From Alcaligenaceae bacterium (GTDB taxonomy: Bacteria > Pseudomonadota > Gammaproteobacteria > Burkholderiales > Burkholderiaceae_B): DNA of 64,000 bases. The number at the start of each line of letters is the position of its first letter. The stretch's first letter is position 1. The notes beneath the pieces are model-generated. The model did not search any database. It had not been told where the DNA came from and saw only the letters and a program-made list of their open reading frames with translations. The DNA lies in NCBI GenBank assembly GCA_013416405.1, contig JACCET010000008.1, positions 1-64,000 of the forward strand, written 5' to 3'. Of this stretch, positions 3,958-42,612 are shown piece by piece. The position numbers and the translations under genes were made by a program.

Positions 3958-4841
3958 GGGGAATTCCTTTCTTGCGTGGCTTCGCGTATGCGGATGGTGG
4001 GCACAGGTGCCGCAGCGGGCGATTGCGGGCTCGCAGTGCCTTTGATGCTGCGTCTGACTGCTGGTGATGCCGTCCCGGTATGTGCTGGCATGGGTGTGGT
4101 GCCGTAGGCGCCGTTGTGAATCGCCAGCACTTGGTCGCCCAGGCGCAGATGCCATAAGGCAGACGTGCGATGAAGCACCATGGTGCGTTCATCTGCCATG
4201 TGGTGATTGGTGATAACTTCCTGGCCGTCTGGCGTGACGCGGTACACGGTCGGGATGTCGGCTTGCGGCGCAAACTGCAGCCAGGTCTGACGGCCATCAT
4301 CCCAGGCGTGTACTGGCGCGATGGCCGCATCGCCGCTGCGGGTGTAGGCCTGCCAGTTCATGTTAGCGCTAACGGCTTGTAAGGATCGTTCAATCGCAGC
4401 CTTTTGTGCGGCCTGAGTTCGTTGCCTGACTTCAACCTCTGGGTAGCGGATCACGAGTTTGTACAAGGCGGCTGAATTGCGGTTGTCGCTGTACGAGAGC
4501 CTGAAGCTGTAATCGCGTCGGTCAGTGACGACGATGAGGTTGGTGTTGGCGTCCTCTGCCGTGGGCTTGAAGAACAGATGATTGTTCTTGTAGGTAAATG
4601 CATAGGCTTGGCTGTCGCCAAAGACGTGGTAGACATAGCGCTCACCGGGCTCCAGTACGATATGGGTGGCCACGCCGATCACGGCGTTGAGCTGGATGAC
4701 ATTGGCGTCGTTGTAATTGACATAGCGTACGCGGTGGTCGAGCCGCGAAGAACGAGGGGTCTCCAACGCCAGGGCGCTGGCGGGTATGGCCAGACCAAGA
4801 AACAACGCCAGCGCCTGCCGACTGGGGAAATGTTTAAACAT
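3954..4841 (-). CDS. virB9: VirB9 type IV secretion outer-ring protein
   Basis: 295 aa with a signal peptide (MFKHFPSRQ, hydrophobic core, ASALA near residue 26). The N-terminal domain (DHRVRYVNYNDANVIQL, GERYVYHVFGDS, LFFKPTAEDANTNLIVVTDRR) is typical of VirB9/CagX. It forms the periplasmic and outer-membrane core complex with VirB7 and VirB10. The start has AAGGAA nearby. An extended Ala/Pro/Thr-rich C-terminal tail (about residues 245-295) follows the VirB7-binding domain. Confidence 0.95.
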   Translation of the reverse strand: MFKHFPSRQALALFLGLAIPASALALETPRSSRLDHRVRYVNYNDANVIQLNAVIGVATHIVLEPGERYVYHVFGDSQAYAFTYKNNHLFFKPTAEDANTNLIVVTDRRDYSFRLSYSDNRNSAALYKLVIRYPEVEVRQRTQAAQKAAIERSLQAVSANMNWQAYTRSGDAAIAPVHAWDDGRQTWLQFAPQADIPTVYRVTPDGQEVITNHHMADERTMVLHRTSALWHLRLGDQVLAIHNGAYGTTPMPAHTGTASPAVRRSIKGTASPQSPAAAPVPTIRIREATQERNSP

Positions 4842-42104: not shown

Positions 42105-42118
42105 TACGACCAAAAAAC

Positions 42119-42145
42119 AAAAGCCTGCCCAAACGGCAGGCTTTT
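42119..42145. terminator. Strong bidirectional terminator after rep
   Basis: AAAAGCCTGCC and GGCAGGCTTTT are perfect 11-bp arms around a 5-base loop, with A and T runs at both ends. It ends rep and the opposite small gene. Confidence 0.85.
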
Positions 42146-42195
42146 AGCCTTTTGCGCTGAGTCAGCGCTTTCGATTCAGGCTTGATGCCTGTGTA

Positions 42196-42429
42196 TTACC
42201 ACTGCGAGCCGGAAAAACGTGCATCCTTGGCGCGGGCTTCGTTAAGGGCTGCGGTTACATCAATGATGTAGTCGTTCGCGGCCAAAACGCCATTCTTGAT
42301 GGACGTAAATGCTTTCTGGATCAGGGCAACAATCGAAACTGACTCACCATCGCTCATTGCTTTGCGCATCAGGTCACGCTCAAGAGAGTCACTCAAGCGG
42401 CTGTGTTGGTTGTAAGAAAGATCCGACAT
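42196..42429 (-). CDS. Small unknown protein behind a palindromic leader
   Basis: 77 aa, beginning MSDLSYNQHSRLSD, with no signal peptide or membrane segment. It looks helical, mixed charge, with KAFTSIKNGVLAANDYIIDVTAALNEARAKDARF in the second half. I do not recognise the family. It is flanked by the rep terminator on one side and an unusually repeat-rich leader on the other, which suggests tight control. GAGGT is near the ATG (42427-42429). Confidence 0.65.
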   Translation of the reverse strand: MSDLSYNQHSRLSDSLERDLMRKAMSDGESVSIVALIQKAFTSIKNGVLAANDYIIDVTAALNEARAKDARFSGSQW

Positions 42430-42452
42430 AATTACCTCACCTATTCAGGTTA

Positions 42453-42484
42453 TGTGCTGACAAACAGAATGTTTTGTGCTGACA
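42453..42484. repeat. 10-bp direct repeat TGTGCTGACA
   Basis: Exact copies at 42453-42462 and 42475-42484, 22 bp apart start to start (two helical turns), between the small gene's ATG and the palindrome. They may be regulator sites. Confidence 0.6.
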
Positions 42485-42490
42485 TGACTC

Positions 42491-42534
42491 ATTATAGGGT
42501 TAACCCTATAATAAAGCTAGGGGTAAACCCTAGC
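42491..42534. promoter_or_regulatory. Palindromic operator region of the small gene
   Basis: A perfect 22-bp palindrome spans 42491-42512 (half ATTATAGGGTT). Its outer arms hold TATAAT on both strands. A second inverted repeat (42516-42522 GCTAGGG with 42528-42534 CCCTAGC) and a further GGCTAGGG half-site (42545-42552) follow. The shared TAGGG/CCCTA arms suggest repeated binding of one dimeric regulator over the promoter of the 77-aa gene. Confidence 0.7.
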
Positions 42535-42612
42535 AAAACTAAATGGCTAGGGATTCGTCTCTTATTTACGTCATTTCCTTATGTGACGGCATGAAAATGT
42601 GGTTTTCAATCA

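Follow-up and report, generated by a model that had tools for sequence, protein, structure and literature searches.

Why should a gene for a protein of only 77 amino acids be preceded by so many symmetric DNA sites as are found in one Alcaligenaceae genome? The window, i.e. the whole stretch of 64,000 nucleotides that was analysed, contains this gene between genes for a UvrD/Rep helicase and a nitronate monooxygenase. Upstream of it lies an intergenic gap of 183 bp (42430-42612), for which an earlier note had described a perfect 22-bp palindrome carrying TATAAT on both strands, a second TAGGG/CCCTA inverted repeat, a third half-site and a 10-bp direct repeat at 22-bp spacing, and had postulated a dedicated repressor. 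The palindrome, the second inverted repeat and the half-site were all found again, and the direct repeat proved to be a 14-nt element with copies 93% identical at spacing 22, arranged around AACATTCTGTT. The features are the following:

42118-42146, minus strand: intrinsic terminator behind the 77-aa gene, 12-pair stem followed by a T run
42196-42429, minus strand: gene of the 77-aa protein (family A), an open reading frame with a product predicted to be mostly helical
42449-42462, minus strand: leader direct repeat, copy 2
42471-42484, minus strand: leader direct repeat, copy 1 (TGTCAGCACA...)
42491-42496, minus strand: -10 hexamer TATAAT of the 77-aa gene, overlapping operator 1, with CCCTATAAT conserved
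42491-42512, no strand: perfect 22-bp palindrome ATTATAGGGTTAACCCTATAAT, which holds the operator 1 core TAGGGTTAACCCTA (42495-42508), a core kept in 21/21 loci
42516-42534, no strand: operator 2, inverted repeat GCTAGGGGTAAACCCTAGC with core GGGGTAAACCCT (42520-42531), 24 bp upstream of operator 1
42546-42555, no strand: extra half-site GCTAGGGATT, seen in the sequence

On its gene side the palindrome ends with the -10 hexamer itself. Because the -10 lies inside the palindrome, the transcribed leader probably comprises only about 55 nt, so that the 183 bp given earlier are correct for the gap and most likely not for the leader. The terminator would close a monocistronic transcript of about 370 nt. 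Since the nitronate monooxygenase gene is located on the same strand as the 77-aa gene, a plus-strand promoter in this region would be antisense to it. Two copies of the leader direct repeat occur in several of the nearest relatives and one or none elsewhere; in one near relative (L002) both copies carry the same base change.

The protein encoded here belongs to no Pfam, NCBIfam or PHROG family according to profile searches, as had been supposed from the sequence. Membership of UPF0181 (PF03701) was rejected since its score of 12.7 bits (E 0.096) lies below the gathering cut-off of 23.5. An AlphaFold model shows a single helix over residues 5-73 (pLDDT 71, pTM 0.36), and a structure search of the PDB with this single-helix model gave no match. 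Homologues were detected in 21 of 61 genomes searched, the own genome counted, and all of them are members of family f1.

ATTATAGGGTTAACCCTATAAT is the sole perfect palindrome of at least 18 bp in the window, in which a first-order Markov model expects 0.025 perfect palindromes of 22 bp. As the site is also present in all 21 homologous loci and stands out against controls, a chance palindrome was rejected. The pattern TAGGGNNNNCCCTATAAT was searched within 330 bp upstream of the family A genes: every one of the 21 loci reaches at least 12 of the 14 fixed bases and 16 are perfect, compared with a best score of 11 among 677 control stretches taken from these loci. A relative with the gene but without the palindrome, which would have spoken against its function, was accordingly not encountered among them. 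The conserved operator-promoter unit can be written as TAGGG-WWWW-CCCTATAAT, and in 56 named loci from Pollutimonas, Bordetella and Achromobacter this module is perfect in 53, with 12/14 in one and 11/14 in two. Within it the central four bases vary among relatives (seven different A/T tetramers) while the flanking GGG/CCC are unchanged, and such a drifting A/T centre with fixed GGG/CCC is the mark of a protein-binding dyad, here a putative one. The outer ATTA, on which the full 22-bp symmetry depends, is found in only one of the 21 homologous loci, namely that of the window, and in none of the 54 named loci scored. TATAAT on both strands, although truly present in the window, is therefore peculiar to its genome; what is conserved is the core together with the gene-side -10 only. 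In all 21 loci the operator and the -10 of the small gene form one fused unit at a distance of 35-113 bp from the ATG, i.e. a conserved dyad overlaps a promoter element. That the palindrome represents a regulator-binding site, putative as it is, is strongly supported by these comparisons.

The second site is likewise conserved. With at least 7 of 8 bases, and at either the spacing of the window or one turn longer, it was found in 19 of the 21 family A loci. Its spacing in the 54 named loci scored is 23-24 bp in 9 and 34-35 bp in 37 (no second site in 8), the two values differing by about one helical turn and the longer one being typical for Achromobacter and most Bordetella. In seven of the eight loci without a second site a consensus DnaA box TTATCCACA occurs within 50 bp upstream; in the Bordetella loci L232, L234, L236, L238, L257, L269 and L276 this box takes the place of the second operator.

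We suggest that a single conserved DNA-binding regulator uses both the palindrome and the upstream repeat as operators; probably dimeric, it would recognise AGGG/CCCT half-sites around four A/T bases. The centre of operator 1, which is fused to the -10, would be near -17. That of operator 2 would be near -41 in the window and about one helical turn farther out in most Bordetella and in Achromobacter. With the regulator bound, RNA polymerase would be kept from the promoter and the 77-aa gene would stay off. Further proposed targets of this protein are the 61-aa paralogue, additional small-protein genes and positions some 21-28 bp behind the presumed rRNA start; its binding there would couple a set of tiny proteins to the synthesis of ribosomal RNA. 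We consider this explanation probable. What is observed is the sites themselves, where they lie, how well they are conserved and in which genomes they occur together; from this we infer the single protein, the repression and the link with growth. Repression is the simplest reading because of the overlap of operator 1 with the -10 and, at spacing 23-24, of operator 2 with the -35 region, and at the promoters of the tiny genes the regulator is most likely a repressor.

Such an arrangement resembles the simple repression of textbook bacterial promoters, in which an operator covers the -10 or -35: the palindromic sites of the window overlap the -10 and partly the -35 region, and often there are two of them. 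The difference is that here the same site is kept also downstream of the start at rRNA operons. The KorC operator of IncP plasmids likewise has TAGGG/CCCTA half-sites over the -10 of small-protein genes, but they are 7 bp apart there and 4 bp apart here. In MerR-type operators the dyad lies inside an overlong spacer of 19-20 bp. This type was rejected because those relatives whose -35 can be recognised (L021, L007) have a spacing of 17 between it and the -10, and because the dyad runs into the -10. The SOS (LexA) box, CTGT-N8-ACAG, is by reading a different dyad from the operator core TAGGG-N4-CCCTA and was rejected as well.

The regulator might also be a dual one, activating from operator 2 and, as occupancy rises, closing the promoter through operator 1; we regard this as rather unlikely. 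In its favour, operator 2 is found at about -41.5 here and at -52.5 in Achromobacter and most Bordetella, i.e. on the same face of the helix, the two spacings being about one turn apart, and the -35 at 17 bp is poor in the window (TAGCTT), a point that also weighs against our main reading. Against it, 8 of the 54 named loci do without the second site, some relatives possess a better -35 (TTGACT in L021) and the family B promoters in the genus of the window have their second site downstream of the -10.

The same module is found far beyond the 77-aa gene. With at most one mismatch allowed, TAGGGWWWWCCCTATAMT is present in 112 of the 151 genomes of the family, and 4 of the 151 match the reversed control. 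From such matches 90 loci were fetched, not at random, with many near-duplicates or repeats among them and with the second site of the own genome included. A gene of family A or B type was detected with the family A profile at 65 of these loci. Of the remaining 25, 13 show another small open reading frame according to our own reading, namely family C (e.g. MANIAYDKLATVGG...), family D (MLVPFSNYPVNETFERML...) and two others; the 12 sites that precede no recognised small gene may be chance sites. In the genome of the window the 61-aa paralogue (family B; G000:C57) carries a first site at its -10 and a second immediately downstream. Families A and B are homologous in their N-terminal parts, sharing the motif RLxDxLERxLM (hhalign probability 97.9, E 3.8e-13; 97.6 when repeated with larger sets). 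At several family B promoters (L120 around 3968-3985; L179, L183, L202, L324, L337) a second palindrome, GAACGAAACGTTC or nearly so, lies just downstream of the operators and is perhaps a site for another regulator.

In the order as a whole exact TAGGGWWWWCCCTATAAT is a rare sequence, present in 8 genomes among 300 (five f1, two f31 and one f49). In the two genomes of f31, a neighbouring family, it stands in front of a gene of DUF3563 (PF12086, E 9.9e-22 and 1.9e-27). In the f49 genome (L125) its location near a phasin-like gene is probably due to chance. A search from the protein side yielded 12 DUF3563 genes in 6 of 43 chosen genomes; by our reading, GGG-WWWW-CCC is present at the promoters of 6 of the 8 f31 genes and of none of the 4 elsewhere. 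DUF3563 was absent from all 15 family f1 genomes tested. DUF3563 genes and the 77-aa gene are thus alike in the GGG-WWWW-CCC sites of their promoters, but the 77-aa protein is not a member: neither it nor its paralogue family has a Pfam match to PF12086, with hhalign probabilities of 0.1 for A and 0.8 for B. Since hhalign detected no homology of family C or DUF3563 to families A and B, it is the promoter and not the protein that is shared. In one f31 genome (L206, sites at 1944 and 1969) the module also precedes a further 52-aa protein (MSFIFALFQKVSDLFASP...), with the second site downstream.

Exact-site searches led moreover to regions upstream of 16S genes. In 21 genomes searched for 16S a match was obtained in 16, and 10 of these 16 show GGG-WWWW-CCC at a near-constant distance after a -10 of the form TATAGT or similar: G002, G003, G004 (three operons), G005 (two), G006 (two tandem promoters), G011 (two), G016, G021 (two), G022 (2/3) and G026 (read in L195). 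No site was seen at the rRNA promoters of G007 and G427, nor in G001, G012, G019 and G031, where only 91-474 bp of upstream sequence are available. With the start assumed 7 nt after the -10, the centre of the site is located about 21-28 bp into the transcript. A composite pattern, CTATAGTN{20,28}GGGWWWWCCC (CTATAGT, 20-28 bases, site), matches in 58 of the 151 family genomes, compared with 6 for the reversed control. When 30 composite loci were fetched, a 16S start was present 444-659 bp downstream in 11 of them; 18 break off with the contig, in the way of rRNA operons in draft assemblies, and a single one has no 16S start within 1500 bp. The genome of the window contains two such promoters, both at contig ends (C22, C55); its link with rRNA rests on its relatives because its 16S genes are missing from the assembly. 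The effect of the regulator at rRNA operons could differ from repression, since the sites there are downstream of the start and not on the -10.

The 77-aa gene and the rRNA promoter may have some leader text in common (TCTGTTCT...CAGCACA). This similarity is suggestive in four genomes, where a fraction of 0 to 0.0145 of the shuffles reaches its score, and weak in G005 (0.072); two genomes do not show it. In the window it is the leader direct repeat (42449-42484) that resembles the rRNA transcript start (TCTGTTCT..CAGCACA).

Both kinds of site tend to occur together. Among the 151 genomes 54 have both, 58 only the tiny-gene site, 4 only the rRNA site and 35 neither (Fisher p = 1.7e-5, with kinship ignored), in a table that is blunted by rRNA regions missing in drafts and by the strict -10 of the composite pattern. 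Where a lineage has lost the tiny-gene site or never had it, the rRNA site is mostly missing as well: neither was found in G158 (g67), G010 (g8), G017 (g15), G025 (g23) and G073 (g6), nor in G069, for which only 409 bp of rRNA upstream sequence could be read. Three g16 genomes have both, namely G146 (both operons read), G079 (one of two) and G127 (one, the other operon offering only 216 bp). There are counter-cases to the coupling, i.e. G007, G427, G130 (g23) and G124 (g6), which have a tiny-gene site or pattern match but whose rRNA promoters, as far as read, show no site, and the four genomes with the reverse.

Exact AGGGWWWWCCCT gives 7 sites in the own genome (control 0) and 37 in four genomes of the genus (control 4), RGGGTWWACCCY gives 45 in five genomes (control 6), and the TAGGGWWWWCCCTA form is present in 34 of 34 genomes, chosen mainly for having matches, with 83 sites and 2 in the control. 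TAGGGTTAACCCTA with at most two mismatches yields 20 sites in the own genome and 18 in the control, i.e. no signal, so enrichment there is visible solely with the exact GGG-WWWW-CCC. Sites recur upstream of hfq (genus), uvrB (three genomes), a ZapB/ZapA-like pair (two), an MFS transporter (two), an fnr-like gene (G001, G002) and a divergent LysR/ABC pair (L028, L198, L327; three genera), gene names being our reading of the translations. In genomes of the genus of the window CAGGGAAAACCCTG is found about 55-60 bp upstream of the hfq start (L174, L181, L132, L142), and in front of uvrB (L326, L340, L342) GTGATAATAAGGGGTTTACCCT has the site directly behind a -10-like hexamer. The LysR protein at L028 was considered as the common regulator and rejected: of 32 genomes only 12 yield a match at the level of E 1e-60, with an identity of 40-47% in five of the 12, and G001, G005, G006, G009, G011, G016 and G019 have sites and no match.

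The presence of sites at rRNA operons and at a few housekeeping loci (hfq, uvrB) would also suit chromosome- or nucleoid-organising elements at highly expressed promoters instead of regulatory operators. The sites are few per genome (7 exact ones in the own genome), however, and their fusion with the -10 at 35-113 bp from the ATG in all 21 small-gene loci makes this improbable. A repressor dedicated to the 77-aa gene alone, as proposed originally from the two or three sites crowding one promoter, has become very improbable with the same module at the paralogue, at small genes in most family genomes, at several unrelated families of small proteins, at DUF3563 genes and at rRNA promoters. Equally remote is a function of the palindrome as RNA hairpin: the rRNA-operon site, being downstream of the start, could form a GGG/CCC hairpin and a terminator-like stem is also listed at operator 2, but operator 1 of the tiny genes overlaps the -10 outside their own transcript, and at this locus no Rfam family came near its gathering score.

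Together with the regulator proposed above, a wider and more tentative picture may be drawn. The Alcaligenaceae and some neighbours would possess a lineage-specific and sequence-specific regulator of rRNA synthesis, with its binding site some 25 bp inside the rRNA operons. By means of a site joined firmly to the -10, this regulator would in addition control tiny helical proteins, a set that changes between lineages and that would act on the growth machinery (e.g. ribosome or RNA polymerase). For the 77-aa protein such an action, judged by the genes sharing its site, is speculation. Fis and H-NS of Escherichia coli act on rRNA promoters, with degenerate and mostly upstream sites. The rRNA operons as targets of a transcription factor are the common feature, in contrast with the strict palindrome at about +25 described here. 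CdnL/CarD also acts on rRNA promoters, by binding RNA polymerase. Searches of open-access literature on the motif, DUF3563, Bordetella and rRNA control gave no description of the motif or of DUF3563. An operator over the -10 is of a known kind; one that tiny-protein genes have in common with rRNA operons throughout a family is, as far as searched, undescribed.

The control of rRNA transcription is poorly known outside a few model species. A strict palindrome at rRNA promoters of a family that includes Bordetella and Achromobacter, common to unannotated tiny proteins, offers a direct handle on the regulator, its signal and the roles of these proteins. It also means that unrelated small proteins can be grouped by their common promoter where sequence similarity fails.

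Two further observations concern other loci. Near 1495-1520 of L137 and L128 a longer palindrome, CCTCAAGGGATATCCCTTGAGG, is altered on both sides in a relative (CCTAAAGGGATATCCCTTTAGG) and looks like a different dyad. In L177 a GntR gene is located divergently from a site.
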